From NCBI RefSeq assembly GCF_009707545.1, contig NZ_WLYK01000001.1:124001-188000 (forward strand): 64,000 nt of DNA. Reading direction: 5' to 3'. Of the stretch, positions 30,225-64,000 are shown piece after piece; within the stretch, counting starts at the first letter, position 1; every line of letters begins with the position of its first letter. A program made the translations under genes and the position numbers. Under the pieces are notes generated by a model. That model was given only the letters and a program-made list of their open reading frames with translations. It ran no database searches and was not told where the DNA came from. Source of the stretch: Nakamurella alba. Lineage in GTDB: Bacteria; Actinomycetota; Actinomycetes; Mycobacteriales; Nakamurellaceae.

Positions 30225-31460
30225 GTGGACTGGTCGATACCGACCGACGTCACCGCGTTCCTCGCGGAGCTCGACGCCTTCATCGAACGGGAGATCGCGC
30301 CGCTCGAGGCCGCGCATCCCGAGTTCTTCGACCACCGCAGGGAATTCAGCCGGACCGACTGGGAGCGTGACGGGTTCCCCGCCAAGGCCTGGCGCGAACT
30401 GCTGCTGGAGATGCGCCGCCGCTCGGACCGCGCCGGCTTCTTCCGCTACGGGCTGCCGGCCGAACTGGGAGGCCGCGGCGGCACCAACCTCGCCATGGCG
30501 GTCATCCGGGAGCATCTGTTGACCAAGGGGTCCGGCCTGCACTTCCCGCACGCCGACGAACACTCGGTGGTGGCGAACCTGCCGCTCGCGCTGGTGCTGC
30601 ACCACTACGGCACCGCCGAACAGAAGGAGGCGCTGCTCGAGCCGTTGATCTCGGGCGAGATCGAGATCGCCTTCGGGCTCACCGAACCCGGGCACGGCAG
30701 CGACGCCACCTTCCTGGAGACGACCGCCGTCCGCGACGGGTCGGACTGGATCATCAACGGCGCCAAGCGGTTCAACAGCCTGGTCGACTGCTCGTCGGTC
30801 GACGTGGTCTTCGCCAGGACCGGCGGCACCACCGGGAAGGCCGACGGGATCACCGCCTTCCTGGTGCCGACCGACGCCGAGGGCTTCTCGGTCCCGTACA
30901 ACCACTGGACCTTCAACATGCCCAGCGACCACTCGGAGGTGCACCTCAAGGACGTCCGGGTGCCGGCCTCGGCCGTGCTCGGCGAGGTCGGCCGCGGGCT
31001 CGACTGCGCCCAGCTGTTCGTCCACGAGAACCGGATCCGGCAGGCGGCCTCGTCTCTCGGTGCTGCTCAGTACTGCATCGACCGCAGCGTCGAGTACGCC
31101 CAGGAACGGGTTGTCTTCGGAAAGCCGCTGCGCGATCACCAGGGTATTCAGTGGCAGCTCGTCGAGCTGCAGACCGAGGCGGAGCTGGTGCGCAACACCA
31201 TCCACCGGACAGCGTCCATGATGGACGGTCTCGGCCGGACCGAGGTGTCGGACAAGGTGGCGATGGTGAACTTCCGCAGCAACCGGTTGGCCTGCGACGC
31301 GGCCGACCGGGCGATCCAGATCCACGGCGGGGTCGGGTACACCCGGCACAAGCAGTTCGAGCACATCTACCGGCACCACCGCCGCTACCGGATCACGGAG
31401 GGCACCGACGAGCTGCAGCTGCGCCGGATCGCCTCGCGGATGTTCGACTTCAGCCGGTGA
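30225..31460 (+). CDS. Acyl-CoA dehydrogenase
   Basis: This 411-aa FAD enzyme oxidises an acyl-CoA to the 2-enoyl-CoA. FAD/substrate blocks are IAFGLTEPGHGSDATFLETTA, GAKRFNSLVDCSSVDVVFARTGG, the FGKPLRDHQGIQWQLVE helix and the C-terminal QIHGGVGYTRHKQFEHIYRHHRRYRITEGTDELQLRRIA. The long N-terminal region is like that of FadE enzymes with branched or bulky substrates. GTG at 30225 has GGAGA 8 bases upstream. The 3' end overlaps the convergent TetR gene by 11 bases. Confidence 0.93.
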   Translation: MDWSIPTDVTAFLAELDAFIEREIAPLEAAHPEFFDHRREFSRTDWERDGFPAKAWRELLLEMRRRSDRAGFFRYGLPAELGGRGGTNLAMAVIREHLLTKGSGLHFPHADEHSVVANLPLALVLHHYGTAEQKEALLEPLISGEIEIAFGLTEPGHGSDATFLETTAVRDGSDWIINGAKRFNSLVDCSSVDVVFARTGGTTGKADGITAFLVPTDAEGFSVPYNHWTFNMPSDHSEVHLKDVRVPASAVLGEVGRGLDCAQLFVHENRIRQAASSLGAAQYCIDRSVEYAQERVVFGKPLRDHQGIQWQLVELQTEAELVRNTIHRTASMMDGLGRTEVSDKVAMVNFRSNRLACDAADRAIQIHGGVGYTRHKQFEHIYRHHRRYRITEGTDELQLRRIASRMFDFSR

Positions 31461-38036: not shown

Positions 38037-39212
38037 ATGGAGCTCGCCGATTCCCCTGACGAAGCCCGGTTCCGCGCCGAGGTGCGCACCTGGTTGGCGG
38101 CCACACTGCCGACCCTGCCCTGGCCCGAGCCGGTCGAACTGGTGGCGAAGCTCCCGTTCTGGCAGGAGTGGCAGCGCAAGCTCTACGACGGCGGGTACGC
38201 CGGGCTGTCCTGGCCGGTGGAGTACGGCGGCCAGGGGGCGGACCCGGTGCGCCGGGCGATCTTCACCGAGGAGCTCGACCGGGCGGGCGCGCCGGAGCGG
38301 CTGAACACGATCGGCGAGGACTTCGCCGGACCGACGATCATCGACTTCGGGACCGATGCGCAGAAGGAACGATTCCTGCGCCGGATCCTGACCGGCGAGG
38401 ACATCTGGTGCCAGCTGTTCTCCGAGCCGGAGGCCGGTTCCGACCTGGCCTCGCTGCGCACCAGGGCGACGAAGGTCGACGGCGGGTGGCGCATCGACGG
38501 TCAGAAGGTGTGGACCAGCCGGGCCCACCTCGCTGCCCACGCCATCCTGCTGGCCCGCACCGGCGGCGGGCCGCGGCACAAGGGCATCACCTTCTTCCTG
38601 GTACCGATGGACACGCCTGGCATCTCGGTGCGGCCGCTGGCGCACATGCTGGGCGAGGCGGAGTTCAACGAGGTCTTCCTGGAGAACGTCTTCATCCCGG
38701 ACGATCTGCGCGTCGGTGAGGTGGACGGCGGATGGAAGGTCGCGATGGGCACCCTGGCCTACGAGCGGGTCGCCATCGCCACCGGCCGGGTCAACACCCA
38801 GCAGGCGGTGTCCGACATCATCAGCGACGTCCGCGGGATGACCGCCGAGGACGGATCGCCGCTGGGTGCGGTACCGGCGATCCGGCAGAAGGTGGCGGAC
38901 CTCTACGGCCGTGCGCTGGTGCACTACCTCATCGGACAGCGGGTGATCGCGAACGCCGCGGCGGACGGCCCCCCGGGACCGGTCACCTCGATCGGGAAGC
39001 TCTACTTCTGTCCGCTGGTCGAGGATCTCGCCGACTTCCGGCTGTCGCTGGACCCGATGGGTGGTCAGTCCCTGCCGGACGACCCCGACGAACCCGCCGA
39101 CAAGTGGCTGCGCCTGGCCTACCAGGCCCGCGGGACCGCGATCGCCGGCGGCTCGACCTACATCCAGCGCAACATCGTCGCCGAGCGCATGCTCGGCCTG
39201 CCGAGAGGCTGA
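38037..39212 (+). CDS. Acyl-CoA dehydrogenase
   Basis: This 391-aa FAD enzyme shows LSWPVEYGGQGADPVRRAIFTEELDRAGAP, DIWCQLFSEPEAGSDLASLRTRA, GQKVWTSRAHLAAHAILLARTGG and the end GGSTYIQRNIVAERMLGLPRG. Where many relatives have SEIQRNI this one has TYIQRNI. Such enzymes often work as heteromers with a second dehydrogenase on bulky acyl-CoAs. ATG 38037 follows a box-controlled promoter. Five bases separate it from the synthetase gene. Confidence 0.92.
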   Translation: MELADSPDEARFRAEVRTWLAATLPTLPWPEPVELVAKLPFWQEWQRKLYDGGYAGLSWPVEYGGQGADPVRRAIFTEELDRAGAPERLNTIGEDFAGPTIIDFGTDAQKERFLRRILTGEDIWCQLFSEPEAGSDLASLRTRATKVDGGWRIDGQKVWTSRAHLAAHAILLARTGGGPRHKGITFFLVPMDTPGISVRPLAHMLGEAEFNEVFLENVFIPDDLRVGEVDGGWKVAMGTLAYERVAIATGRVNTQQAVSDIISDVRGMTAEDGSPLGAVPAIRQKVADLYGRALVHYLIGQRVIANAAADGPPGPVTSIGKLYFCPLVEDLADFRLSLDPMGGQSLPDDPDEPADKWLRLAYQARGTAIAGGSTYIQRNIVAERMLGLPRG

Positions 39213-48370: not shown

Positions 48371-49510
48371 GTGAGCCCGACAGAAGCAGCCAAGAGGTCG
48401 CCCGCACTGCAAGGCCGCGGGGATCCGAGCCGCGCACGCCCGGCACCGCGTCGCCGGTTGGACCTGGAGCCGATCGCACTGCCGGTCACCTGGGTCCTGG
48501 TGATCGTCCTGTTCACGATCCTGAAACCCGGTGTGTTCCTCACCCAGGCCAACATCTCCTCCATCCTGTCCTCCCAAGCGGTCCTGGTGGTTGTCACACT
48601 CGCGATCGTGATCCCGTTCACCGTCGGTGATCTCGACGTCTCGGTGGGAGCGGTCGTCGGGTTCTCGGCGATGCTGACGGCGATCCTCAACGTGCAGCAC
48701 GACGTGCCCGTGTTCCTGGCGGTGCTCATCGCGATCGTCGCCAGCATGGCCATCGGCCTGTTCAACGGGATCGTCGCCACCACGATGAACGTCGACCTGC
48801 TGATCGTCACTCTCGGGACGGGCAGCCTGATCACCGGGGTGACCGCATGGATGAGTGATCTGAACACCATCACCGGGGTGTCGCAGGGCCTGGTGGACGC
48901 GGTGGTCGGGCACCGCATCCTGGGGATCGCCCCGGAGTTCTACTACGCGATGGTCATCGCCGTCGGCCTCTTCTACATGCTGCGCTACCTCCCGTTCGGC
49001 CGGCGCATGCTGATCGTCGGGCAGGCGCGGGATGTCGCCCTCCTGTCGGGCATCAACGTCAACCGGACGCGGGTGCTCGGGCTGGTCATGTGCTCCGGTC
49101 TGGCAGGCCTGGCCGGGGTGCTCTACGTGGGGAACAGCGGCGGAGCGACACCGTCGGGTGGTGCCGAGCTGCTGCTGCCGGCGTTTGCCGCGGCGTTCCT
49201 CGGCGCGACGTCCATCGTGCCCGGGCGGTTCAACGCCTTCGGCTCCGTGATCGCCGTGTACTTCCTGGTCACCGGTATCAACGGACTGCAGTTGCTGGGC
49301 GCACAGACCTTCGTCCAACAGCTCTTCTACGGCGCTGCACTGGTCGTCGCGGTGTCCGTGTCCTCGATGGTGCGTGCCCGGCGGAAGCGACGGGGCGACG
49401 AAGAGGCCGAGGCCGCGATGACCGAGGCCGCGGAGCCGGCCGGAGATCCTCCGGACGCGACTGTGCCGCCCGGCCGGCGCGGGAACACCGACAGCAAGGA
49501 CACCGCATGA
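48371..49510 (+). CDS. RbsC-type ABC permease
   Basis: This 379-aa polytopic permease has an N-terminal tail of about 35 residues, then about nine or ten helices. The region LVVVTLAIVIPFTVGDLDVSVGAVVGFSAM and YLPFGRRMLIVGQARDVALLSGINVNRTRVLGLVMCSGLAGLAGVLY are hallmarks of the ribose/branched-chain type family. The last 45 residues are charged and probably cytoplasmic. Five bases separate it from the ATPase stop. Its stop overlaps the next gene by ATGA. Confidence 0.92.
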   Translation: MSPTEAAKRSPALQGRGDPSRARPAPRRRLDLEPIALPVTWVLVIVLFTILKPGVFLTQANISSILSSQAVLVVVTLAIVIPFTVGDLDVSVGAVVGFSAMLTAILNVQHDVPVFLAVLIAIVASMAIGLFNGIVATTMNVDLLIVTLGTGSLITGVTAWMSDLNTITGVSQGLVDAVVGHRILGIAPEFYYAMVIAVGLFYMLRYLPFGRRMLIVGQARDVALLSGINVNRTRVLGLVMCSGLAGLAGVLYVGNSGGATPSGGAELLLPAFAAAFLGATSIVPGRFNAFGSVIAVYFLVTGINGLQLLGAQTFVQQLFYGAALVVAVSVSSMVRARRKRRGDEEAEAAMTEAAEPAGDPPDATVPPGRRGNTDSKDTA

Positions 49511-50532
49511 TCACGCGCGCCGATTTCGACTTCCACACCAACGACGGGACCGACCGGACGTGGACGGAGACCATCGGCGGGGTGTTCTCCGTACCGGAGG
49601 CGGGCATCCTCGCCAACGTCTACGTGCTGGCCCGGCCGAACCTCGGTGTGGTCACCTCCTGCGTGAACGTGCACCAGGGGCTGTGCACGACCCCGTACGA
49701 GATCGACTTCCACGACCCGCAGGTGCACCTGCCCTGCCCGTCGAGCTTCAGCAGCTTCACCCTGGACAGCGGGATGGGTGTCGAGGTCGACAGCAGCGGC
49801 GGTTACCGGATGACCTACCGGAGTGCCGACGGCAACTGCAGTTTCGACCTCGACTACTCGCCGATCATGGCCCCGTGGGACATGCACGACCCGGCCACGA
49901 ACCCGCTGCTGCCCGCCGACGGACTCAAGGACGCGGACACCGGGCTCGGGGCCGGTTGGGCACACGGCCACTTCGACCTGATCAACGAGATCACCGGCAC
50001 CCTGCGGCTGCGCGGACGCGAGTACGAGGTCCGGTGCACGGAGGGCATGGACCACAGCTGGGGCCCTCGTCCGGAGACCGGTGGCCAGGACGTGGCCGTC
50101 ACCTGGCTGCACGTCACGTTCGGGCGCAGGTTCGGGATGCACCTGGCGGCCGCCCTGGAGATCGAGGACGGCGAGGTGCGCTACGGCCCGGTCCGTTTCG
50201 GCTACGTCGTCGAGGACGGTGAGGTGACCGGCATCGAATCGGCGGAGATCATCGGAGAGACCGACCACCTGATCCCGGTCCGCAACCACATCACGGCCCG
50301 GGATGCCCGGGGGCGCGAGTGGGAGTTCGGCGGCGCCTCCGTGGGCGGTGCCCCGTGGTACTCCTGGAATCCTTTCACCTGCTCGTTCTCGAGCCTGATG
50401 CGGTACGAGAGCGGCACCGGGGAGGTCGGGCACTCGATGATGACGGACGTCTACGGGCTGGAGTTCCTGGCGGATCGCATGTCCCGGCACGGGATCTCAC
50501 GTCGCACCGCACACCCGGGCGGCACCCGGTGA
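49507..50532 (+). CDS. AttH/CrtC-like (lipocalin-type) protein, copy 1
   Basis: This 341-aa soluble protein without a signal peptide resembles the AttH/CrtC hydratase-like superfamily; databases list close relatives as DUFs (I believe DUF7064/DUF7065, unverified). The diagnostic stretch is TEGMDHSWGPRPETGG near residue 178. Other features are ANVYVLARPNLGVVTS near 36 and SVGGAPWYSWNPFTCSF near 280. CrtC relatives add water to isoprenoid double bonds, so hydration of the pathway substrate is possible but unproven. It overlaps both neighbours by 4 bases. It is paralogous to 52374-53390 and more distantly to 57895-58926. Confidence 0.82.
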   Translation: MITRADFDFHTNDGTDRTWTETIGGVFSVPEAGILANVYVLARPNLGVVTSCVNVHQGLCTTPYEIDFHDPQVHLPCPSSFSSFTLDSGMGVEVDSSGGYRMTYRSADGNCSFDLDYSPIMAPWDMHDPATNPLLPADGLKDADTGLGAGWAHGHFDLINEITGTLRLRGREYEVRCTEGMDHSWGPRPETGGQDVAVTWLHVTFGRRFGMHLAAALEIEDGEVRYGPVRFGYVVEDGEVTGIESAEIIGETDHLIPVRNHITARDARGREWEFGGASVGGAPWYSWNPFTCSFSSLMRYESGTGEVGHSMMTDVYGLEFLADRMSRHGISRRTAHPGGTR

Positions 50533-51740
50533 ACGCGCTGTCCCAGGCCGAGCGGGACCTGCCGACGACACGGTTCGCGCGTCGGGTGGCGGAGAACTAC
50601 CCGACCGATCCCGATCTCGCCGCGATGCTTGACCGGAAGATGGCCCTGCGTCGCCAGGGGCCCGGCGTCACCCCGTCGTTGGACGGACTACGGGCGTCGC
50701 TGACCGCGCTGCTCGCCGCATCCCTGGGTGGAGAGTTCACCGTCGCGGACGAGAGTTGGCTGACCGGCGGCGCATCGAAGGTCCAGATGGGGTTCACGCT
50801 GCACCGGCCGGGTCCGGGCGGCGCAGACACGGCCGAGAAGCTGATCCTCCGGATGGATCCACGCGAGCCGATCAACACGACCGACAAGACCCGCGAGTTC
50901 GAGATGGTCAGATCCCTGGTGGGCACGGTCCCGGTGCCGGAACCGCTGTGGGTCGACGCGGATGCGACCTGGTTCCCGGAGCCGGCGATCGTGTACCGGA
51001 TCGTCCCCGGGGTGGCACGTCCCTCCGGGGCGGTCACCGGTCAGGTGGTCGGCCTCGGAACGAATTTCGGACCTGAACTCCGGAAACGGCTGGCTCCGCA
51101 ATTCATCCGGGACCTTGCCGCGTTGCACACCTTCGACACGTCGACGCACCTGTACCGGAGCACGACGGCACCGACGGCAGGAACGGTGCAGAATGCGTTG
51201 TGGCGGCTGAACTACGAGCGTCGGGTGTGGGAAGAGGATCGTGGTGAGGACTGCGCACTGATAGAACTCGCCGCTTCGTGGTTGGAGCGGCATCTGCCGG
51301 AGCTCGATCACGTCGGTCCTGTGCACGGCGACTACCGCAGTGGCAACTTCCTCTTCGACGAGACCTCGGGGGAGATCACCGGCTGGCTCGACTGGGAAGG
51401 TGCTCACCTGGGCGACAGGCACTGGGACCTGGCCTGGTCCACCCAGCCGCTGTTCGGCCACCGCGACGAGAGCGGCTCCACCTTCCTGGTCAGCGGACTG
51501 CTGCCGGTGCCCGAACTGCTCGATCGCTACGAACAGGCGTCCGGGCTGCCGGTGGACCATGAGCGTCTGGACTGGTACCGGGTACTGACCTGCTACTCGA
51601 TGATGGTGAAGACCATCGGGTCGGCGTACCGGGTGTCCAGGCTCGGAAGATCCCATCAGGACGTGCTTCTCGCCCGACTGGAGGGCTCCCGCAGCGTCAT
51701 CGAGCTCGAACTCCTGAGCCTGCTGGAAAGGCTGCTGTGA
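50529..51740 (+). CDS. APH-family kinase, copy 1 of the kinase plus partner cassette
   Basis: This 403-aa kinase is of the aminoglycoside phosphotransferase fold, with an extra N-terminal region of about 70 residues. SWLTGGASKVQMGFTL is the nucleotide loop, KLILRMDP the ATP lysine, GPVHGDYRSGNFLFDE (near 264) the catalytic loop and GWLDWEGAHLGD the metal site. The C-terminus RVSRLGRSHQDVLLARLEG is shared with the second copy. The family includes LvaA, which phosphorylates 4-hydroxyvaleryl-CoA, and the kinase domain of ACAD10/11. The GTG overlaps the preceding stop. Its small partner follows with a 1-base overlap. Confidence 0.87.
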   Translation: MNALSQAERDLPTTRFARRVAENYPTDPDLAAMLDRKMALRRQGPGVTPSLDGLRASLTALLAASLGGEFTVADESWLTGGASKVQMGFTLHRPGPGGADTAEKLILRMDPREPINTTDKTREFEMVRSLVGTVPVPEPLWVDADATWFPEPAIVYRIVPGVARPSGAVTGQVVGLGTNFGPELRKRLAPQFIRDLAALHTFDTSTHLYRSTTAPTAGTVQNALWRLNYERRVWEEDRGEDCALIELAASWLERHLPELDHVGPVHGDYRSGNFLFDETSGEITGWLDWEGAHLGDRHWDLAWSTQPLFGHRDESGSTFLVSGLLPVPELLDRYEQASGLPVDHERLDWYRVLTCYSMMVKTIGSAYRVSRLGRSHQDVLLARLEGSRSVIELELLSLLERLL

Positions 51741-52297
51741 TGGAATACAGCGCGAACGCCCTGCACGCCGCGATCCGGGCACTGGACGAGGTCGTCCGCC
51801 CGGTCGTCGAGGCCGCCGACGACGCACAGGCAGCGGACCAACTGACGTTGGTGACGGACACGCTTCGCTTCCTCGAACTCAGGCTGGCCGATCTGCCCAG
51901 GCGGAGCGCGTTCCTGCTGCAGAACTCGGTCGACCTCGCTGCGGCGTTGGCGGAGGATCTGGCTGACGAGAGTCCGGACACCGCAGGGATGCTGGTGTCG
52001 GCGGCCAGGCGCGCTGCGGAGCTCCCGTCCGGCGGGGACGCGCTCGCCGAGGTGACCGGTGCGATCCGGGAGACACTGCGGAACCTACTCTCCTGGAGGG
52101 ACCCCGCGCTCCGGCGCAGTGCCGCCTGGCACGTGTTGGCCGGCGAACGCCGCCGTATCACGGCCGACCGGGCCTGGTTCGCACCGCTGGGATTCGACAC
52201 CGACCCGGACACCTTGGCGACCCTCGACGAGGCGATGCCGATCCCATTGCCGGCCGGCGCGCCGCCGCCCCGTCGCGCGCGACAGGAGACCGGATGA
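51740..52297 (+). CDS. Small helical kinase-partner protein, copy 1
   Basis: This 185-aa all-helical protein has no signal or membrane segment. The start MEYSANALHAAIRALDEVVRPVVE aligns with MDHTANTARAALKAMREVVVPAL of the second copy. Both share RRSAFLLQ or RRAAFHLR near residue 55, and a conserved end DRAWFAPLGFDTDPD or DRSWLAPLGFDPDP. I do not recognise a named family. In Pseudomonas putida the kinase LvaA needs a small partner, LvaB, encoded next to it, and this protein may play that part. The ATG shares one base with the kinase stop; a GTG 3 bases earlier is also possible. Confidence 0.75.
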   Translation: MEYSANALHAAIRALDEVVRPVVEAADDAQAADQLTLVTDTLRFLELRLADLPRRSAFLLQNSVDLAAALAEDLADESPDTAGMLVSAARRAAELPSGGDALAEVTGAIRETLRNLLSWRDPALRRSAAWHVLAGERRRITADRAWFAPLGFDTDPDTLATLDEAMPIPLPAGAPPPRRARQETG

Positions 52298-52373
52298 CCG
52301 CCCGACCGACGGGGGGCAACCACCGAGCCCACCGGCGCAGCGAGCCCGCACCGCACTTCACCTGGAGGACCAC

Positions 52374-53390
52374 TTGATCAAGCCCGAGGACGCCGAGTTC
52401 CACCCCAGCGAGGCGTCGATGACGACGTGGGCCGAGACCATCGGCTTCTGGTTCGCAGTGCCCGAGGAGGCGATCTACGCCAACGTCTACGTGCTGTGCC
52501 GGCCGAACGTGGGCGCGGCCTACTCCTCGATCAACGTGATCCAGGGCCGCAACCACCACCCGTTCTCGGTGGACTTCACCGACCCGCACATGCACGTGCC
52601 CTGCCCGGATTCCATGCTCGACTTCACGTTGCAGAACGGGCTCCGGGTCACTGTCACGAAGCCCCCGAACAACTACCGGTTCAGCTACGTCTCGCCCGCA
52701 GAAGATGCCTGTTCCTTCGACCTGACCTTCGAGGGCGTCATGCCCGCCTGGGATCCGAACGATCCCCGGGAGAATCCGCTGCTGGCCGACCCGGATCGGA
52801 CCGACCTCGGCCTCGGGGACGCCTGGTCCGGGGGACATCTCGACTTCGTCGGACGGGTCCGCGGCACCCTCCGGTTGCGGGGGGTCGAGTACGAGGTGGA
52901 CTCCATGGGTGGCATGGATCGCAGCTGGGGGCGGCGGACCGAACTCGGCCAGGCGGCGATCTCCTACCTGCACATGCCGTTCGACGACGACTTCGGGTTC
53001 CACGTGGTGACCGGCATCGAACTGGACCGCGGTCAGGTCCGGTACAGCCCGTTCCGGTTCGGCTACGTCTACGAGAACGGCGGGACGACCGGCCTGACCG
53101 AGGCGCGGATGACCGGTGGGCAGGCGCAGGGACTGCTGCCGATGTGGAACGCCATCGAGGTGACGGATGTGCTCGGCAGGTCGTGGACGCTGCGGGGAAC
53201 GGCTGTCGCCAACGCCCCGTGGTACACCTTCAGCCCGTCGTACGTGACCTTCCAGGCGTTGGTGCGCTACGACCTCGACGGGCGAACAGCTTTCGGCCTG
53301 ATGGCCGACACCTACGGCATCGAGTTCCTGGCCGACCGGACGTCCCGCCACGGGCGGCTGACCTCGACCGCCTTCGGTCCGGGGATCTGA
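52374..53390 (+). CDS. AttH/CrtC-like (lipocalin-type) protein, copy 2
   Basis: This 338-aa paralogue of copy 1 shares IYANVYVLCRPNVGAAYSSINVIQG, DSMGGMDRSWGRRTELGQ near residue 180 and AVANAPWYTFSPSYVTF. It starts at a TTG (52374) with GGAGG 6 bases upstream, and the frame has no good ATG or GTG nearby; the protein would begin MIKPEDAEFHPSEAS. The gene is 76 bases after the partner gene and shares one base with the alcohol dehydrogenase start. The paired copies may form a heteromer. Confidence 0.8.
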   Translation: MIKPEDAEFHPSEASMTTWAETIGFWFAVPEEAIYANVYVLCRPNVGAAYSSINVIQGRNHHPFSVDFTDPHMHVPCPDSMLDFTLQNGLRVTVTKPPNNYRFSYVSPAEDACSFDLTFEGVMPAWDPNDPRENPLLADPDRTDLGLGDAWSGGHLDFVGRVRGTLRLRGVEYEVDSMGGMDRSWGRRTELGQAAISYLHMPFDDDFGFHVVTGIELDRGQVRYSPFRFGYVYENGGTTGLTEARMTGGQAQGLLPMWNAIEVTDVLGRSWTLRGTAVANAPWYTFSPSYVTFQALVRYDLDGRTAFGLMADTYGIEFLADRTSRHGRLTSTAFGPGI

Positions 53391-54496
53391 TGAGGACCAC
53401 GGCGGCCGTGGCGCGCGCGGCCCGGGAGCCGTTCACGGTGGAAGAGGTGGATCTGGGCGGGCCCGGGCCCGACGAGGTGCTGGTCGAGATCGCCGGGGTC
53501 GGGCTGTGCCACACCGACATCGCCGCAAGGGACGGGATCTACGGCCTGCCCTATCCTCTCGTACTCGGGCACGAGGGCAGTGGCACGGTCGCCGCCGTGG
53601 GTCCGGCGGTGACCGACCTCGCGATCGGCGACCCGGTGGTCCTCTCCTTCGCCAGCTGCGGTGGTTGCGTCACGTGCTCGGCGGGCCGGCCTGCCTACTG
53701 CGAACGGTTCACCGAGTTCAACTACATCGGCAGCCGCCCGGACGGCAGCGCGACGATGACGCAGCCCGGTGGCGCGATGCACGGACACTTCTTCGGCCAG
53801 TCCTCCTTCGCCACCCACGCTCTCGCTCCACGGCGCAGCGTGGTCCGGGTGACGACGGAGCTGGCCACCGGTCTGCTCGGCCCGCTCGGCTGCGGTATCC
53901 AGACCGGAGCCGGCGCGGTGATGAACTCCATGGATGTCCGGGCGGGGACGAGACTGGTCGTGCTCGGTGGCGGGCCGGTCGGGCTCGCGGCCGTCATGGC
54001 CGGGGCGATCCGGGGCTGCTCGGCCATCGTCGTCGTCGAGCCGCATGCCGACCGGCGTGCCTTCGCACTGACGGTCGGCGCGACCGCCGTGGTCGACCCG
54101 GCCGAGGGGCCACTGGCCGACGGCCTGCGTGCCGTCGTCCCGCAGGGGGCCGACTACCTGTTCGACACGACCGGCCGGGTGGAGGTGATCTCGGCGGCGC
54201 TGGGCGTGGCCGCGGCCAACGCGACTCTCGGCCTGGTCGGTGTGCCGCAGGACTTCTCGGTGGAGCTGCCGTTGAACATCGTCCGCGCCATGCAGCTCGG
54301 TCTCACGGTCAAGGGGATCGTCGAGGGGGACAGTGACCCGCAGGTGTTCATCCCGGAGCTGTTGCAGTACCACCGGGAAGGACGGTTCCCGTTCGACACG
54401 ATGATCCGGACGTACCCGCTGAGCGACATCAACGCAGCGGTCGAGGCCCAGCACCGTGGCGAGGTGGTGAAGGTCGTCCTGCTACCCGGTCGCTGA
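53390..54496 (+). CDS. Zinc-dependent alcohol dehydrogenase (class III/aryl-alcohol type)
   Basis: This 368-aa zinc MDR enzyme has the catalytic zinc ligands Cys and His in VGLCHTD and GHEGSG, and the structural zinc cluster in SCGGCVTCSAGRPAYC with four cysteines. The nucleotide turn is VVLGGGPVGLAAVMAG. The segment FFGQSSFATHALAP is typical of benzyl/aryl alcohol dehydrogenases. The ATG overlaps the stop of the previous gene by one base. It oxidises a primary or allylic alcohol to the aldehyde, which the next gene would oxidise to the acid. Confidence 0.92.
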   Translation: MRTTAAVARAAREPFTVEEVDLGGPGPDEVLVEIAGVGLCHTDIAARDGIYGLPYPLVLGHEGSGTVAAVGPAVTDLAIGDPVVLSFASCGGCVTCSAGRPAYCERFTEFNYIGSRPDGSATMTQPGGAMHGHFFGQSSFATHALAPRRSVVRVTTELATGLLGPLGCGIQTGAGAVMNSMDVRAGTRLVVLGGGPVGLAAVMAGAIRGCSAIVVVEPHADRRAFALTVGATAVVDPAEGPLADGLRAVVPQGADYLFDTTGRVEVISAALGVAAANATLGLVGVPQDFSVELPLNIVRAMQLGLTVKGIVEGDSDPQVFIPELLQYHREGRFPFDTMIRTYPLSDINAAVEAQHRGEVVKVVLLPGR

Positions 54497-54541
54497 CCGC
54501 GGCGTCCGTTCCGTTCCCTTCCCGAAGCACAGGAGTCCACG

Positions 54542-55990
<1,449 letters not shown>

Positions 55991-56056
55991 GGAAGTCGTA
56001 CTGTTCTCGCGGCCGGAAGCGGTTCCGGAACCTGGGATAGAAGGAGTGATCACACT

Positions 56057-57280
56057 GTGGTGAGCACCGGCAGAGCGGAACTGCCCGGCCCGGAGGACGC
56101 GGACCGGGACAGGCCCTCGGATGCCCTGCAGACGGCCGTCCGGGAGAGCTTTCCGACCGACCCGGCGGGCCAACAGGCCATCGACCAGAAGCTGCACCGC
56201 AGGGGCGGTCCCGGCTGGACACCGCTGGCACTGTCCCGGCTCGTCGACGGCGTCCGGGCGTTGCTCGACGAACGGGTCGGCGCCGGATGCGAGATCCGCG
56301 AGCCGCGGTGGCTCACCGGCGGCGCCTCGAAGATCCAGATGGCCTTCACCGTCGTCCTTCCCGGGCAACAACCACGACGGATGCTGCTCAGGATGGATCC
56401 GCCGGAGACGCTGAACGCGACCAACAAGTCCACCGAGTTCGAGGTGCTCCGCGCTGTCGGCGCCGTGCTGCCCGTGCCGGAGGCGCCGTGGATGGACGCA
56501 ACGGGCGAGTTCCTGCCGGAACCGGCACTCATCTGCGGCTTCGTCGACGGTGTGACGAAACCGGCGCTGACCTCGACCGGCCAGGTGACGGGCCTGGGCA
56601 CGAACTTCGGGGCGTCGTTGCGTCCGTCGCTCGGCGCCGACTTCGTGACGCACCTCGCCGCGCTGCACACCCTCCCGGTGACCGGTGTGCAGTCTCCAGC
56701 GGTGGTCGCACCGCGGACGGGCACCAGCGAGTCCGCCCTGTGGCGACTCAACTTCGAACGCCAGCTGTGGGAGCTCGACAGGGGCGAGGACGTCCCGCTC
56801 ATGGATGTGGCCGGCGGCTGGCTCGCCCGCACCGCCCCGGTCCTGGACCGGGTGAGCGTGGTCCACGGTGACTACCGCAGCGGCAACTTCCTCTTCGACG
56901 AGGCCTGCGGGCGGATCACCGCGTGGCTGGACTGGGAGTCCTGCCATCTCGGCGACCGTCATGCCGATCTCGCCTACTGCACCCAACCGCTGTACGGCCA
57001 CTACGCGGAGGACGGTGAGACCTTCCTGGCCGGCGGTCTGCTCCCGGTTCCCGACCTCCTCCGGATGTACGAGGAGGCCTCGGGTCTGTCGATCGACCCG
57101 GTGCGGCTGGGCTGGTATTCGATCCTCTGCTCGTACTCGGCCGTGGTGAAGACCCTGGCCACCTCCTACCGGGTGGCCCGGCTCGGCCGCTCGCACCAGG
57201 ACGTGCTGCTGGCCCGGCTCGAGGGAACCGTTCCTGTTCTGCTGCAACAGCTCTCCACCAAACTTGAGGAGGTGCTCTGA
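56057..57280 (+). CDS. APH-family kinase, copy 2 of the kinase plus partner cassette
   Basis: This 407-aa kinase is close to copy 1: RWLTGGASKIQMAFTV, RMLLRMDPPETLNATNKSTEFEVLRAVG, VVHGDYRSGNFLFDEACGRITAWLDWESCHLGD near 269, and RVARLGRSHQDVLLARLEG. GTG 56057 has GAAGGAG upstream; a second GTG is 3 bases later. An inverted repeat CCGGAA-GCGG-TTCCGG lies in the 66 bases after the aldehyde dehydrogenase. Duplicated kinases may serve two enantiomers or two intermediates. Confidence 0.87.
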   Translation: MVSTGRAELPGPEDADRDRPSDALQTAVRESFPTDPAGQQAIDQKLHRRGGPGWTPLALSRLVDGVRALLDERVGAGCEIREPRWLTGGASKIQMAFTVVLPGQQPRRMLLRMDPPETLNATNKSTEFEVLRAVGAVLPVPEAPWMDATGEFLPEPALICGFVDGVTKPALTSTGQVTGLGTNFGASLRPSLGADFVTHLAALHTLPVTGVQSPAVVAPRTGTSESALWRLNFERQLWELDRGEDVPLMDVAGGWLARTAPVLDRVSVVHGDYRSGNFLFDEACGRITAWLDWESCHLGDRHADLAYCTQPLYGHYAEDGETFLAGGLLPVPDLLRMYEEASGLSIDPVRLGWYSILCSYSAVVKTLATSYRVARLGRSHQDVLLARLEGTVPVLLQQLSTKLEEVL

Positions 57281-57281
57281 A

Positions 57282-57812
57282 TTGGACCACACGGCGAACA
57301 CGGCCCGCGCGGCGTTGAAGGCCATGCGGGAGGTGGTGGTACCGGCACTGGACGGGGACGGAAGGAAGCAGGCGGCCGAGCAGGCGCAGCTCGTCGCGGA
57401 CTTCCTCGCCTTCGTCGCCGAGCGGGTCGATCTGATCGACCGGCGGGCGGCGTTCCACCTGCGGTGCACGACCGCCACGGCGCGGGCCCTCGCCGCCGAC
57501 CCGGCGGTGCCCGGGCTCCGGTCCCGGCCCCGCCTGGAGCAGGCTCTCCGGCAGCGTCCCGACCCCACCGCGGCCGGCGGATCGATCGAGGCGGTCACGG
57601 CCGGGCTCAACGCCGCGATCGGTGCGGTCGTCCGGGACGCCGACGGGCTTCCCGCCGTGGAGCGCCGACGGATCGAGCAGATCGTCGTGGCGGGGGCGCA
57701 ACCGGGGATCAGGGGCGATCGATCGTGGCTGGCGCCACTGGGTTTCGATCCCGATCCACTGGGGGTGCCCGAACTGGGGGCGAGTCTCGACTGGGGTCTG
57801 GGTGCCGGCTGA
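57282..57812 (+). CDS. Small helical kinase-partner protein, copy 2
   Basis: This 176-aa protein starts at a TTG (57282) one base after the kinase stop, with GGAGG 9 bases upstream. The start is supported because the N-terminus MDHTANTARAALKAMREVV then aligns end to end with copy 1. Shared features are the early helix, RRAAFHLR, and the terminal DRSWLAPLGFDPDPLG. A role as LvaB-like partner of the kinase is inferred only from gene pairing, repeated twice in this operon. Confidence 0.72.
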   Translation: MDHTANTARAALKAMREVVVPALDGDGRKQAAEQAQLVADFLAFVAERVDLIDRRAAFHLRCTTATARALAADPAVPGLRSRPRLEQALRQRPDPTAAGGSIEAVTAGLNAAIGAVVRDADGLPAVERRRIEQIVVAGAQPGIRGDRSWLAPLGFDPDPLGVPELGASLDWGLGAG

Positions 57813-57866: not shown

Positions 57867-57896
57867 GGACCGGTGGCCCTCGGACCGGTGGCTCTC
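57867..57896. repeat. 15-bp tandem repeat between convergent operon ends
   Basis: GGACCGGTGGCCCTC (57867-57881) is followed directly by GGACCGGTGGCTCTC (57882-57896), one mismatch. The minus-strand stop codon (57897-57895) touches the second unit. It lies between the long plus-strand operon and the third AttH/CrtC-like gene. Confidence 0.65.
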
Positions 57897-58926
57897 AGAC
57901 CAGCGAAGGTCGGTACGTGTAGGACCGGCTGCGGCTGTGCGCGAACTCCAGGATGCCGGTGCCGGCGACTCCGTCGCAGGTGAACGCGGTGAGCCGGTCG
58001 GTGAGGGCGGAGTCCACGGTGGCAGGCGACACGGATCCGTCGAGCGGGTAGACGTCGTACTCGAGATGATCGACGCCACAGGGCTTCCCATGGTGCCCGC
58101 CGTAGCCGGCCCCGGCCATCCAGCCGCCGCCGGCCCGCGCGTCGCCGTCGATGTCCAGCACCGCGCCGGATGCGGTGGTCACCCGGACCCGGCCGGTCTC
58201 CAGGTCAAGACCGGGACCGAAGGTGAGATCGTGCCGTACGTCGACGATGTCGTCCACCTCGCCGGAGGTGTGCAGCACCGCACCCTCCAGCAGCAGCCGG
58301 CCGCCCGTGCGGTCCTCGACGTGCAGGAATCCCACGCAGTACTCCGGGAACTGTGCCTGGTACCAGAGGTGCAGGCCCTGCCCGCCGGCCATCGTGCGCA
58401 CGCCGCGGGAACGGTCCCGCTGGCCGTACCAGCCCGCGACGTCGGTCCGGACGCCGTCGATGGTGATGGTGCCGGTATAGGTGCCGGACTGGAAGAGGTG
58501 GTCGAAGGTCGACGGGACGCCGTCGGCGTTGCGCACCTCGACGCCGCCGTGCCATGCCTCGGTCCGTGCCCGCCAGGTGATGTCGCAGCCGAGCCCGATG
58601 GGGTTGTCCGCTAACCGGAGTCGCCAGCTGCGGTTCGGCTCCAGCACGGTCCAGGACAGCGGCCCGACCGATCCCGCGGCCGCCGGCGACAGCGCGGAGA
58701 GCTCGGTGGAAAACCGCAGGTTGCGCTGCTCGGTGGCCGTGGTCACGACCGCGAAACCGTCCGTGACGTCCCGGACCGGGTAGACCCCGGCGCCCATGAT
58801 GACCGACGGCGCGGTGGCGTCCGTCGGGTGCAGGTTGAACATGAACCGGTCGAAGAAGCGCTCGGGAAGGTCCGGGGTGCCCGGGGCGACGAGCGGATCG
58901 TGGAAGGTGTCTTCGAGTTGCAGCAC
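57895..58926 (-). CDS. AttH/CrtC-like protein, diverged copy 3
   Basis: This 343-aa protein has the same fold signature in changed form: GWYGQRDRSRGVRTMAGGQGLHLWYQAQFPEYCVGFLHVED, and STFDHLFQSGTYTGTITIDG upstream of it. It lacks the SWG of copies 1 and 2 (RSRG here). I chose GTG 58926 because GGAGG lies exactly 5 bases upstream; upstream ATGs at 58938 and 58974 would place a 38-base palindrome inside the gene. It is co-directional with the GntR gene, so the two may form one unit. The plus-strand operon faces it. Confidence 0.78.
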   Translation of the reverse strand: MLQLEDTFHDPLVAPGTPDLPERFFDRFMFNLHPTDATAPSVIMGAGVYPVRDVTDGFAVVTTATEQRNLRFSTELSALSPAAAGSVGPLSWTVLEPNRSWRLRLADNPIGLGCDITWRARTEAWHGGVEVRNADGVPSTFDHLFQSGTYTGTITIDGVRTDVAGWYGQRDRSRGVRTMAGGQGLHLWYQAQFPEYCVGFLHVEDRTGGRLLLEGAVLHTSGEVDDIVDVRHDLTFGPGLDLETGRVRVTTASGAVLDIDGDARAGGGWMAGAGYGGHHGKPCGVDHLEYDVYPLDGSVSPATVDSALTDRLTAFTCDGVAGTGILEFAHSRSRSYTYRPSLV

Positions 58927-58936
58927 CTGAACCTCC

Positions 58937-58974
58937 ATGTTCGGTACGACCAAAAGAACGATCGCACCGAACAT
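58937..58974. promoter_or_regulatory. 38-base inverted repeat before the third AttH/CrtC-like gene
   Basis: The arms ATGTTCGGTACGA (58937-58949) and TCGCACCGAACAT (58962-58974) are complementary except for one position, around a 12-base centre. It lies between the GntR stop and the ribosome binding site of the next gene. It could be an operator or an RNA hairpin controlling that gene separately. Confidence 0.5.
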
Positions 58975-58994: not shown

Positions 58995-59774
58995 TCAGTC
59001 CTCGTCCGGCACCGAGATGTCGGTCCGTTCGTCGACCTGCATGAGGGCCTCGGCGTAGGAGTGCACGTGCCGGGTCATCCGGCGGACCGCCGCATCGGGG
59101 TCGAGATCCCTGATGGCATTGGTGATCGTGGTGTGGGCCCGCAGGGTGGTCGCCTTCACGGCCCGGTCGACGAACGCCTCGTTCTCGGTGGCGGTGTAGA
59201 TCGCCCGGGACAGGGCCATCATCATGCCGGTCAGCAGTTCGTTGTGGCCGGCCGCGGCGACGGCGACATGCCAGTCCAGGTTGGACTGCAGGAACAGCGC
59301 CAGGTCCGGCTCGTCCAGCGACGCCTCGAGGTCGGCGTTGGCCCGGCCCAGCGCGTCGAGGTCCTCGTCGGTGCGGTGGGTGGCGGCCAACCGCGCGCAG
59401 AACGGTTCGATGGCCTCGCGGGTCTCCAGCAGGGCGGCGAGCCGGATCTGCCGGCCGCGGATCAGCAGTCCGACCGACCGGGCCATCGACTCCTCACCGG
59501 GGCGTTGCACGAAGGCGCCGCCGGCACGCCCGGCCTTGATGCGGACCAGACCCTGTACCTCCAGGATGCGCAGGGACTCGCGCACCGTGGTGCGACTCAT
59601 CCTGGTCTGCACGACCAGCTCGCGCTCCGGGGGCAGCGGTGTCCCCTCGACGAACTCGCCGGACAGGATCCGCTCGCGCAGGGCATCGGCGAGCACGTCG
59701 GAGGCCTTCGGAACCTGCATCGGGGACAACTTGATCTCCGACCGCCCCACCCTGTCGATCGGGTCCGTCGACAT
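58995..59774 (-). CDS. GntR-family regulator, FadR (FCD) subfamily
   Basis: This 259-aa regulator has a winged HTH at about residues 24-90 (LADALRERILSGEFVEGTPLPPERELVVQTRMSRTTVRESLRILEVQGLVRIKAGRAGGAFV) and an all-helical FCD ligand domain from about 105 (LLETREAIEPFCARLAATH, NLDWHVAVAAAGHNELL, RAHTTITNAIRDLDPDAAVRRMTRHV). The helical domain keeps the metal-ligand-type residues His and Asp. It is divergent from the dehydrogenase at 59876. The GGTCTAACGGTCAGACC site at 59790 suggests autoregulation. It is the best candidate to bind all GGTCNGACC boxes in the window. Confidence 0.92.
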   Translation of the reverse strand: MSTDPIDRVGRSEIKLSPMQVPKASDVLADALRERILSGEFVEGTPLPPERELVVQTRMSRTTVRESLRILEVQGLVRIKAGRAGGAFVQRPGEESMARSVGLLIRGRQIRLAALLETREAIEPFCARLAATHRTDEDLDALGRANADLEASLDEPDLALFLQSNLDWHVAVAAAGHNELLTGMMMALSRAIYTATENEAFVDRAVKATTLRAHTTITNAIRDLDPDAAVRRMTRHVHSYAEALMQVDERTDISVPDED

Positions 59775-59815: not shown

Positions 59816-59875
59816 CTTCGATCAACAATCGTGATCTCGGCAGGGTAGCCGGACTCCGACGAAGAGGTGCAGCCC

Positions 59876-60949
59876 GTGCGGTGGACGTTGACCGATGAAC
59901 AGCAGATGTTCCAGGAGACCTTCCGTGGGTGGCTCGGCCGGGCCGCCGCGCCCGATGCGGTGCGCAAGTGGCTGGACACGGAGGATCCCGCCGGGTTCGA
60001 CCGCCAGCTCGACGACGAGGGTTGGTCCGCCGTCGGTTTCGCCGAGGAGGTCGGCGGCCAGGGCGGCGACCTGTTGGAGAGTGCCCTCGCGGCGGAGGAG
60101 TTGGCCCGGTGTGCGGCCCCGTCCGGGCGGTGGACCGCGCTGTCGCTGGCCGGCGCGATCGATCCGGACGGGGTCGAGGCGGCGGTGTCCGGCGAGCAGA
60201 ACCCGGCCGTCGCCGTCGATGCGGGCCGGGTGCCGGGTGTCGCGCGCGCGGTCACCGCGGACGGAGGCCGGCTCACCGGCGAGATCGGCTGGGTGGTCGG
60301 TGGTGCCGGCGCGACCCGGCTCCTCGTGCCGGTGCACGACGCGTCCGGAGGTCCTGTCTGGTACGCCGTGGACGCTGCCGCGGAAGGCGTGCGGGCCCGG
60401 CCCCGGCGGCTGCTGGACCGGTCGCGAACCGTCGCCGACATCGGGCTCGACGGTGCCGTTGCCGAGCGCCTGGAGGTGGACGGCGCGGCCGTGATGGCCG
60501 AGGTCGCGCTCCGCGCCGCGGTGCTCACGGCTGCCGATGCATTGGGAGCAATGGAGCGGGTCCTCGACCTGGCAGTGGAGTACGCCGGGCAGCGCCAGCA
60601 GTTCGGCAAGCCCATCGGGTCGTTCCAGGCGGTCAAGCACGCCGCTGCGACCATGCTGGTCGAGGTCGAGGCGTCCCGGGGCATCGTCTACTTCGCCGCG
60701 GCGTCGGTGGCGCAGGGGCACCCCGACCGGGCGTTGCACGCGGCGGTCGCCAAGTCGCAGGTCACGGCCATGGGTGCGCGCGCGGCCGATGTGGCACTCA
60801 CCGTGCACGGCGCGATCGGCTACACCTGGGAGCACGACCTGCAGCTGTTCTACAAGCGGCTCAAGCTCGACGAGAAGCTCTTCGGCGCGCCGGCGGCCTG
60901 GAACGAGCGGATCGCCGACGGGCTCCGGCTCGTGTCCGCGACTGCTTGA
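59876..60949 (+). CDS. Acyl-CoA dehydrogenase, short (about 360 aa) type
   Basis: This 357-aa protein starts VRWTLTDEQQMFQETFRGWLGRAA. A weak mid-domain and a strong C-terminal helix set follow (LDLAVEYAGQRQQFGKPIGSFQAVKHAAATMLVEVEASRG, then ALTVHGAIGYTWEHDLQLFYKRLKLDEKLFG). Such shorter dehydrogenases often form alpha2beta2 heteromers with a second one, as in actinobacterial steroid side-chain degradation; the partner would be 61073-62239. I chose GTG 59876 because GAAGAGG is 8 bases upstream; GTG 59867 is inside that site. Confidence 0.88.
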   Translation: MRWTLTDEQQMFQETFRGWLGRAAAPDAVRKWLDTEDPAGFDRQLDDEGWSAVGFAEEVGGQGGDLLESALAAEELARCAAPSGRWTALSLAGAIDPDGVEAAVSGEQNPAVAVDAGRVPGVARAVTADGGRLTGEIGWVVGGAGATRLLVPVHDASGGPVWYAVDAAAEGVRARPRRLLDRSRTVADIGLDGAVAERLEVDGAAVMAEVALRAAVLTAADALGAMERVLDLAVEYAGQRQQFGKPIGSFQAVKHAAATMLVEVEASRGIVYFAAASVAQGHPDRALHAAVAKSQVTAMGARAADVALTVHGAIGYTWEHDLQLFYKRLKLDEKLFGAPAAWNERIADGLRLVSATA

Positions 60950-60972: not shown

Positions 60973-61072
60973 GTGAAGCCAATCGGGACCGTGGTCGGTC
61001 CCGCCGCGGCGTTGCGGAACGATCGTTCCCATCGCACCGCGGCCTCCGACGAGGCAGATGGGAACGGGCGTC

Positions 61073-62239
61073 ATGGATTTCGACCTCACCGAGGATCAGC
61101 AGACGATCCGCTCGGCGGTGCGTGAGTTGGCCGGCAAGTTCGACGACCAGTACTGGTTGGAGAAGGACGAGGCGCACGAGTTCCCGTGGGAGTTCTACGA
61201 CGCGTTCGCCAAGGGCGGGTGGTTGGGGATCACCACGCCGGAGGAGTTCGGTGGCGCGGGGATGGGGATCACCGAGGCGTCGATCATCCTGGAGGAGGTC
61301 GCGGCGTCGGGGGCGGGGATGAACGGTGCGTCGTCGATGCACCTGTCGATCTTCGGGATGCATCCGGTGATCAAGCACGGGTCGGAGGAGTTGAAGGCGC
61401 GGACGTTGCCGCGGATCGTGGACGGCAGTCTGCACGTGTGTTTCGGGGTGACGGAGCCGGGTGCGGGTCTGGACACCACGAAGATCACCACGTTCGCCCG
61501 GCGTGAGGGTGATGAGTACGTGGTGAACGGGCGGAAGGTGTGGATCTCCAAGGCGGTGGAGTCGGAGAAGATCCTGCTGCTGACGCGGACGGCGAAGTTC
61601 GAGGACTCGCCGCGCAAGACGGACGGGTTGACGTTGTTCCTGACCGACATCGACCGGGCGCACATGGATGTGCGGCCCATCCGGAAGATGGGTCGGAACG
61701 CGATCACCTCGAACGAGATCTTCATCGACGACCTGCGGATCCCGGTGGCGGACCGGGTCGGTGAGGAGGGGAAGGGTTTCAAGTACATCCTCGACGGGTT
61801 GAACCCGGAACGGATGCTGGTGGCCTCCGAGGCGCTGGGGATCGGGCGGGCGGCGTTGCGGAGAGGCGTGCAGTACGCGGGGGAGCGTGAGGTGTTCGGC
61901 CGGCCGATCGGGATGAACCAGGGTTTGCAGTTCCCGTTGGCGGATTCGTTGGCGCATCTGGACGCGGCGGAGCTGGTGCTGCGGAAGGCGACCTGGCTCT
62001 ACGACAACGGCCGGCCGTGCGCGCGGGAGGCGAACACGGCGAAGTACCTGTGCGCGGATGCAGGTTTCACCGCGGCGGACCGGGCGTTGCAGACGCACGG
62101 CGGGATGGGGTATTCGGAGGAGTACCACGTGGCCCGGTACTTCCGGGAGGCCCGGCTGACCCGGATCGCTCCGCTCTCGCAGGAGATGGTGCTCAACTAC
62201 CTGGGCGAGCACGTGCTGGGCCTGCCTCGCAGCTACTGA
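61073..62239 (+). CDS. Acyl-CoA dehydrogenase
   Basis: This 388-aa FAD enzyme is full length: MDFDLTEDQQTIRSAVRELAGKF, LHVCFGVTEPGAGLDTTKITTFARR, GRKVWISKAVESEKILLLTRTAKFED, EVFGRPIGMNQGLQFPLADSLAHLDAAELVL, ALQTHGGMGYSEEYHVARYFREARLTRIAPLSQEMVLNYLGEHVLGLPRSY. ATG 61073 fits family starts; an ATG at 61058 is possible. Codon choice in about 61200-62130 favours G-ending codons (GCG, GGG, ACG, TTG) unlike the C-ending bias of neighbours. It probably works with the 59876 protein. Confidence 0.93.
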   Translation: MDFDLTEDQQTIRSAVRELAGKFDDQYWLEKDEAHEFPWEFYDAFAKGGWLGITTPEEFGGAGMGITEASIILEEVAASGAGMNGASSMHLSIFGMHPVIKHGSEELKARTLPRIVDGSLHVCFGVTEPGAGLDTTKITTFARREGDEYVVNGRKVWISKAVESEKILLLTRTAKFEDSPRKTDGLTLFLTDIDRAHMDVRPIRKMGRNAITSNEIFIDDLRIPVADRVGEEGKGFKYILDGLNPERMLVASEALGIGRAALRRGVQYAGEREVFGRPIGMNQGLQFPLADSLAHLDAAELVLRKATWLYDNGRPCAREANTAKYLCADAGFTAADRALQTHGGMGYSEEYHVARYFREARLTRIAPLSQEMVLNYLGEHVLGLPRSY

Positions 62240-63073: not shown

Positions 63074-64000
63074 ATGGCCCGCGTCAGTGGACCTTTCCGG
63101 CGCACCGCCCGTGAGGTGTTGGTCGCCGAGGCCGTCCGCACCCCGATGGGCCGGTCGCACGCGGAGAAGGGATGGTTCCGCGACACCCATCCCAACGAAC
63201 TTCTCGGCGCCGTCTACGCCGAACTGCTGCGGCGCGCCGATCTGCCCGCCGCCGCCGTCGAGGACCTGATCATCGGCTGCACCGCGCCGTTCGGCGAGCA
63301 GTCCCGCAACATCGGCCGGAACGCCTGGCTGCAGGCCGGTTTCCCGGCCGAGGTGCCGGCCGTCACCCTCGACCGCCGCTGCGGTTCGGCGCAGACCGCC
63401 GTCGAGATGGGCGCCGCCCTGGTGGGTTCCGGCACCCACGACGTGGTGATCGCGGGCGGCGTGGAGCACATGGGGCACGTCCCGATGAACTCGCCCGCGG
63501 CGATCTCCGAGCTGTTCGGGGAACCCTGGCCGGCGGCCCTGCGCGAGCGGTACGACTTCGTCACCCAGGGCGAGAGCGCCGAGCTGATCGCCGACCGGTG
63601 GGGCATCGACCGGTTGCAGATGGACGAGTTCGCGGCCCGGTCGCACACGCTGGCCGCCGACGCGATCGCCGCCGGGCGGTTCGAACCGGAGATCCTGCCG
63701 TGGGACCTGGACGGCGCCGTGCGCACGTCCGACCAGACGGTCCGCCCCGGTACGACGGTGGAGACGCTCGCCGGTCTGCGCACCGTGTTCCGCCAGGGTG
63801 AGCACGCGAGGATCACCGCCGGTAGCTCGTCCCCGATCTGCGACGGCGCCTCCGGCGTCCTGCTGGCCTCCCGGGACGGGGTCGAGGAGTACGGGCTGCG
63901 GGCCCGCGCGCGGGTCGTCGACCAGACCACGGTCGGGGTCGACCCCATCATCATGCTGACCGGGCCGATCCCCGCCACCCGGAAGATCCTGGAGCGCAAC
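63074..64000 (+). CDS. Thiolase (acetyl-CoA acyltransferase), cut by the window end
   Basis: The frame is open from ATG 63074 to the last base, 309 codons, about three quarters of a typical 390-aa thiolase. EVLVAEAVRTPMGRSHAEKG is the family start, and the acyl-carrying cysteine is in LDRRCGSAQTAVEMGAALVGSGTHDVVIAGGVEHMGHVPM near residue 100. ITAGSSSPICDGASGVLLAS is the NxSxxxDGA-type block, with Gly-Ser in place of Asn. The active-site His and second Cys lie beyond the window. It closes the beta-oxidation set started at 59876. Confidence 0.92.
   Translation, partial: MARVSGPFRRTAREVLVAEAVRTPMGRSHAEKGWFRDTHPNELLGAVYAELLRRADLPAAAVEDLIIGCTAPFGEQSRNIGRNAWLQAGFPAEVPAVTLDRRCGSAQTAVEMGAALVGSGTHDVVIAGGVEHMGHVPMNSPAAISELFGEPWPAALRERYDFVTQGESAELIADRWGIDRLQMDEFAARSHTLAADAIAAGRFEPEILPWDLDGAVRTSDQTVRPGTTVETLAGLRTVFRQGEHARITAGSSSPICDGASGVLLASRDGVEEYGLRARARVVDQTTVGVDPIIMLTGPIPATRKILERN

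Follow-up and report, generated by a model that had tools for sequence, protein, structure and literature searches.

A kinase, a small helical partner and a DUF7065/DUF7064 protein as a proposed module for ATP-dependent alcohol dehydration in Nakamurella alba

Tertiary and unactivated alcohols lose water only with difficulty, which makes their dehydration a demanding reaction when terpenoids, steroids and branched pollutants are degraded. In the 64,000-nucleotide stretch of the Nakamurella alba genome analysed here (G000:C1:124001-188000, hereafter the window), a catabolic gene cluster carries two cassettes, each formed by an APH-fold kinase (K1 or K2) directly followed by a small all-helical protein (P1 or P2), together with three genes for proteins of the DUF7065/DUF7064 type (D1, D2 and D3; Table 1). 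The GTG start of K1 overlaps the stop codon of D1, and the ATG of P1 overlaps the stop codon of K1 by one base. We propose that D, K and P constitute a module for ATP-dependent alcohol dehydration, in which K would phosphorylate the alcohol, D would eliminate the phosphate and P would assist K, and we assign to this reading a probability of roughly two in three. The evidence that carries it was seen directly, and consists of the gene order and its conservation, the intact kinase motifs, the homology of D to the 25-phosphosteroid lyase (25-PSL) and the existence of natural kinase-D fusions.

Table 1. Features of the gene cluster, with positions counted from the first base of the window.
Feature	Position	Strand	Basis
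Transporter upstream of D1	~45.8-49.5 kb		Read by eye from translations
D1, DUF7065/DUF7064 protein, predicted phosphate lyase	49507-50532	+	Pfam DUF7064 47.4 bits, DUF7065 29.5 bits
K1, APH-fold kinase, GTG start	50529-51740	+	Pfam APH 84.2 bits
P1, small all-helical partner	51740-52297	+	No Pfam/NCBIfam match
D2, second DUF7065/DUF7064 protein, motif MDRSWGRR	52419-53390	+	Pfam DUF7064 49.9 bits
Zinc-type alcohol dehydrogenase, start approximate	53390-54496	+	Pfam ADH_N, ADH_zinc_N
Aldehyde dehydrogenase	54542-55990	+	Pfam Aldedh 509.6 bits
K2, APH-fold kinase	56057-57280	+	Pfam APH 74.2 bits
P2, second small helical partner, TTG start	57282-57812	+	Similarity to P1
D3, divergent DUF7064 protein, motif RDRSRGVR	57895-58974	-	Pfam DUF7064 32.0 bits
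GntR/FCD (FadR-type) regulator	58995-59774	-	Pfam
Short acyl-CoA dehydrogenase subunit	59867-60949	+	NCBIfam IpdE2 126 bits, below curated cut-off 450
Acyl-CoA dehydrogenase	61058-62239	+	NCBIfam, PDB sequence comparison
Reading frame like short-chain dehydrogenases/reductases, between the acyl-CoA dehydrogenases and the thiolase			
Thiolase, continues past the window end	63074-64000	+	Pfam Thiolase_N 189.9 bits

Both kinases score well above the Pfam APH cut-off (23.2 bits) and share 52% identity over 398 columns (E=5e-142), and in K1 the motifs HGDYRSGN and LDWE are intact. Scanning species genomes with two kinase peptide patterns yielded 43 loci (a sample, and not all, of the relatives of the kinase), which span Comamonadaceae and other Burkholderiales, Nocardia, Rhodococcus, Gordonia, Pseudonocardia, Frankiaceae, sphingomonads and metagenome-assembled genomes (MAGs); L045 and L053, two MAG records with the title Klebsiella, seem to be wrongly labelled. 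Together with the window, these public loci give 52 family kinases, and the motifs H[GA]D.R.GN and [LF]DWE are present in every one of them. The APH fold and weak matches to NCBIfam antibiotic phosphotransferase models would also suit a detoxification system, with a kinase that phosphorylates a xenobiotic or an antibiotic and with P and D as accessory binding proteins. Nevertheless, the best of these matches reaches 38.3 bits against a cut-off of 205, the surroundings are catabolic and the kinase-D fusions described below point to sequential catalysis, so that we consider this explanation very improbable; an antibiotic-resistance kinase in particular was rejected on account of the low scores and the genomic context.

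The relationships among the kinases were examined in a tree built by a quick method, with support from the Shimodaira-Hasegawa-like approximate likelihood ratio test (SH-aLRT) only and without bootstraps. In this tree, K2 (66% identical to a Pseudonocardia kinase) clusters with kinases from Pseudonocardia, Nocardia, Gordonia and Rhodococcoides, K1 is the sister of that group (SH-aLRT 98), and the K family is set apart from ten outgroup kinases, eight of them DUF6285-type (SH-aLRT 99); long branches were flagged for the second kinase of L033 and for the outgroups, and the deep joins are therefore unsure. The two K-P cassettes of the window are old paralogues, and the “duplicated” cassettes of the initial annotation, made from the letters and translations of this DNA, are thus duplicated in an old sense and not as a recent event. 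A third K-P cassette, with a divergently placed D adjoining, occurs in the same genome past the window (G000:C1:229820-232890, with P at 229820-230332).

P stands directly downstream of 47 of the 52 family kinases, which bears out the kinase-partner unit recognized in the initial annotation. Among the five kinases lacking it, two lie at a contig end (L022 and one in L031), one is shortened (L043) and two belong to L050. The latter locus comes from a Sterolibacteriaceae MAG, in which the two family kinases are each followed by D with no P gene found, while a K-P pair is present on L054 of the same MAG. In 24 of the 38 K-P pairs located by motif (one duplicate locus among them), the partner ATG overlaps the kinase stop codon by one base. 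The tree distances of K and P correlate with r=0.83 (n=44 pairs; maximum of 0.24 in 2000 permutations), a value not corrected for shared descent, which alone could produce it in part.

P1 and P2 are 34% identical over 176 columns (E=2e-19), and it had been thought that each aligns only with the other copy; this no longer holds, given the 46 members aligned here and the third copy in the N. alba genome. None of these 46 members matched a credible family, the best hits (E of 0.0048 in Pfam and 0.0035 in NCBIfam) being scattered across unrelated families, and the profile check of the small proteins therefore gave no match to an unrelated family with a defined role in either collection. As judged from its recurrence behind the kinases, P is a real family that carries no Pfam or NCBIfam name. 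The AlphaFold2 model of P1 is a confident all-helical bundle (predicted local distance difference test, pLDDT, 92.8; predicted template modelling score, pTM, 0.83) that includes one 46-residue helix, in agreement with the all-helical nature initially described. Its Foldseek comparison with the PDB returned nothing at E<=0.001, and the best Z (6.9) is usual for helical bundles; from this lack of an informative match neither a new fold nor a function for P follows. A tblastn search of plasmids with P1 gave no match, and the best PHROGs hit of P (E 0.02) was disregarded.

Profile searches for P beyond the kinase-derived sample scored only ~8-11 candidates per genome, and for this reason the absence of P from a genome is weak evidence. 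A first profile, built from P1 and P2, matched three of 397 genomes of the order (N. alba, L012 with 26.2 bits and L013 with 20.9 bits) and two of 296 genomes of the class (N. alba and one of another family, where K lies just upstream of its P). A larger profile matched six of 396 genomes of the phylum; the N. alba genome yielded here the third P with K and D beside it, and the other five matches (19-23 bits) were taken as chance helices. Searches that used P alone, in the class and in the phylum, thus also arrived at K.

The third component, D, was not mentioned in the initial annotation. Of the 43 loci, 36 contain it; 37 of the 52 kinases have a D gene within 1 kb, which in 24 of these cases is directly upstream on the same strand. 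The AlphaFold2 model of D1 is almost all-beta (pLDDT 92.4, pTM 0.90), and its best PDB match is 25-PSL (Foldseek E 7e-13; Z 24.0 over 275 residues, 3.1 Å, 15% identity). At E<=1, the D family profile retrieves from the PDB only two 25-PSL sequences (1.4e-8 and 1e-7). In the alignment, these two sequences read RDRSWGVR and RNRSWGVR at the same motif, and the Asn form belongs to the entry titled with phosphate and alkene product, which suggests that the motif Asp is catalytic. The corresponding motif of D1 is MDHSWGPR (Asp182). Of 41 aligned D proteins, 38 keep the Asp, D1 and D2 among them, and D3 has it as well. The initial idea of a phosphorylation followed by an elimination thus gains support from this homology, at the level of sequence and model, with the DUF7065/DUF7064 protein as the more likely eliminating enzyme.

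An independent link between kinase and D comes from DUF7064 loci that were located without using the kinase. DUF7064 was found in 42 of 246 genomes of the class, and 30 fetched loci from that search (L092-L121) were examined. A kinase motif lies in the open frame of D itself in 11 of them (L092, L093, L094, L097, L098, L100, L101, L103, L104, L106 and L108), and elsewhere within ~1.5 kb in another six. Ten of these fusions belong to a single genus of the order (g7), and the eleventh comes from another family; the one examined whole is 651 residues long, with EcKL/APH, DUF7065 and DUF7064 regions. Such fusions are a pointer to sequential catalysis by the two activities. Additionally, in L115 a kinase with the motif WGDPRPGN (WGDARPGN in PDB 9fsg) lies just upstream of a D protein with RDRSWGVR, and on contig C2 of N. 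alba D lies immediately upstream of a kinase that does not belong to the K family.

Several observations weigh against the proposed module, part of them concerning D. There is no D within 1 kb of 15 of the 52 kinases, no kinase motif within ~1.5 kb at 13 of the 30 DUF7064 loci and no kinase match within 1 kb of two of the five DUF7064 matches in the N. alba genome, so that D also occurs without a kinase neighbour. Its fold is common to a putative AttH protein (Z 23.9, tied with 25-PSL), fungal Diels-Alderases (21-22) and kievitone hydratase (20.8), and therefore the fold alone is no proof of phosphate elimination. Three D proteins (L018, L026 and L052) carry Asn at the Asp position. On the side of the kinase, K may not be an orthologue of the 25-hydroxysteroid kinase (25-HSK), and PDB 9fsg is only possibly that enzyme; 25-HSK is described as monomeric and active without a partner (PMC8449060), which means that such chemistry has no general need of P and that P is an addition. 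Finally, both kinases of L050 have D and lack P despite room to spare, and no kinase-P fusion was seen among the loci.

The Asn-type D proteins adjoin otherwise normal K-P cassettes, and are perhaps a non-lyase variant.

Both the shared fold and the 13 loci without a kinase motif would fit a different reading, in which D, as a hydratase or cyclase-type enzyme, would hydrate or dehydrate its substrate directly and K would serve another step, for example product salvage. We regard this as quite unlikely, considering that the profile of D reaches only 25-PSL in the PDB and that the fusion or adjacency of K and D recurs across different families and phyla.

The dehydration module proposed here resembles a route reported for Sterolibacterium denitrificans, where 25-HSK adds a phosphate to a tertiary 25-hydroxysteroid and the subsequent loss of this phosphate yields an alkene (PMC7411048, PMC8449060, PMC11061730), the kinase and the lyase activity together performing an ATP-dependent dehydration of a tertiary alcohol (PMC8449060, PMC7411048). 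Like that pair, the window combines an APH-superfamily kinase, its motifs intact as in the whole family, with a candidate lyase homologous to 25-PSL in fold and in sequence and carrying the same Asp motif, for the same order of events (phosphorylation, elimination, alkene). In the cholesterol pathway, the lyase step is followed by alcohol and aldehyde dehydrogenases and a CoA ligase (PMC11061730), and alcohol and aldehyde dehydrogenases are also found by the cassettes of the window. The 2021 paper leaves the 25-PSL gene unknown and gives no lyase candidate near the kinase gene (PMC8449060), whereas in the window the genes for the kinase and the lyase homologue adjoin. A further difference is the small partner of K, since 25-HSK acts alone, and the kinase clade of K is probably another. 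The kinase profile finds 9fsg in the PDB (4.5e-15) and scores better with 3ats (7.1e-18), which we take to be Rv3168. The characterised kinase, 25-HSK, acts on free steroid alcohols (PMC8449060), and the CoA-ester substrate put forward in the initial annotation found no support here. In the literature searched, 25-phosphosteroid lyase was found only as proposed or putative, no mention was found of DUF7064/DUF7065 or DUF6285, and no publication for the 2026 PDB entries came up, so a description of the enzyme may exist elsewhere.

Kinase-partner pairing had been likened to the LvaA/LvaB/LvaC system of Pseudomonas putida, which, like ACAD10/ACAD11, phosphorylates and then eliminates by means of an acyl-CoA dehydrogenase homologue, the Lva substrate being a 4-hydroxyacyl-CoA (PMC6692424, PMC11342911, PMC12440821). 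A pull-down with LvaA recovered LvaB (12 kDa), which is required for growth on levulinate (PMC6692424). The analogy opens an alternative in which K and P phosphorylate a 4- or 5-hydroxyacyl-CoA, an acyl-CoA dehydrogenase homologue eliminates the phosphate and D has some other role. It would account for the common layout of a kinase gene followed by a gene for a small helical protein and for the CoA ligase (16), enoyl-CoA hydratase (9) and acyl-CoA dehydrogenase-type (9 sources) clusters that recur near the cassettes, and the window does hold another APH kinase (27348-28478) near an acyl-CoA dehydrogenase (30225-31457). However, neither acyl-CoA dehydrogenase of the operon appears close to ACAD11, which is absent among the best 60 of 78 PDB matches for the gene at 61058-62239 and among the 60 PDB matches listed for that at 59867-60949, and an eliminating enzyme of the LvaC/ACAD11 type thus found no support there. 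Moreover, the acyl-CoA dehydrogenase-type cluster comes from at least nine sources (a lower bound) as against D in 36 of the 43 loci, the eight DUF6285-type kinases sampled fall outside the K family in the tree (with the long branches noted above) and P is not DUF6285 by profile. We therefore hold this alternative to be unlikely and keep to D, rather than to an acyl-CoA dehydrogenase homologue, as the candidate eliminating enzyme. The kinase at 27348-28478 and its neighbour, followed by LuxR, alcohol dehydrogenase, enoyl-CoA hydratase and CoA ligase genes, could be an LvaA/ACAD11-like pair in their own right; another acyl-CoA dehydrogenase of the window lies at 38037-39209.

LvaB is presumably a DUF6285 protein, and this family stands behind kinases as P does: a kinase motif lies ~460-560 bp upstream in 32 of the 34 DUF6285 loci fetched (eight matches of one search have no locus there, one of them, L064, being taken from another search). 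In 12 of these 32 (L072, L073, L074, L075, L076, L079, L083, L085, L086, L087, L088 and L091) kinase and DUF6285 share a single open frame, as natural fusions with the small partner. One DUF6285-type kinase pair is present in the N. alba genome (contig C8). Despite N-termini that look alike by eye (L..A[IV]..L..[DE]V..P...), no relationship of P to DUF6285 could be detected: none of the 46 P members matched PF19802, and the profile-profile comparison with hhalign gave a probability of 0.9% (P 0.063), for which reason homology is not claimed and the presumed kinship of P to LvaB-type proteins was dropped. The two families may be separate answers to one need, or may be too distant for detection, and by analogy P perhaps has for K the role that LvaB has for LvaA.

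Taking these comparisons together, we infer the catalysis, the binding of P to K and the class of substrate of the module as follows. K would transfer the gamma-phosphate of ATP to a hydroxyl of its substrate, probably an isoprenoid, a steroid or another branched compound whose alcohol is tertiary or resists elimination for some other reason. P would bind K and assist it in folding, active-site closure or substrate choice. D would use its conserved Asp to eliminate the phosphate, leaving an alkene, which could then be processed by the adjoining alcohol and aldehyde dehydrogenases and by beta-oxidation enzymes. The presence of two old K-P cassettes and three D genes is consistent with two substrates or with two steps.

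The surroundings agree with the view, already taken in the initial annotation, of two cassettes in one catabolic cluster. Across the loci, a crude gene clustering shows as recurrent neighbours (counted in sources) CoA ligases (16), short-chain dehydrogenases/reductases (11), enoyl-CoA hydratases (9), acyl-CoA dehydrogenases (9), zinc-type alcohol dehydrogenases (8) and TctC receptors (8), and the product of the module therefore probably enters CoA catabolism. Just past the window end follow genes for a CoA-transferase, an HMGL-like protein, three enoyl-CoA hydratases, a CoA ligase, two HGD-D subunits and a BcrAD-type ATPase, and these genes hint at a branched acid as a later intermediate. The two HGD-D subunits (of the 2-hydroxyacyl-CoA dehydratase/benzoyl-CoA reductase type) and the BcrAD ATPase, at L133:10253-13867 (about G000:C1:196252-199866), 8-12 kb past the window end, may form a further system of this stretch for ATP-dependent dehydration or reduction.

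In the literature consulted, the kinase-lyase route appears to be described once, in an anaerobic cholesterol degrader, with the lyase putative or unknown (PMC8449060, PMC11061730). In the N. alba cluster, a kinase and the adjacent lyase homologue are linked with a new partner family. DUF7064/DUF7065 gain a suggested function that can be tested, and the operons and natural fusions offer a route to the substrates. We give even odds to the broader proposition of a general ATP-dependent dehydratase for hard-to-eliminate alcohols across Actinomycetota, Burkholderiales and sphingomonads, made up of a kinase, an obligate small helical subunit and a DUF7065/DUF7064 phospholyase that is sometimes fused to the kinase. 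If this is true, two domains of unknown function and one new family would acquire a function, and the trick known from anaerobic cholesterol degradation would extend to many compounds.

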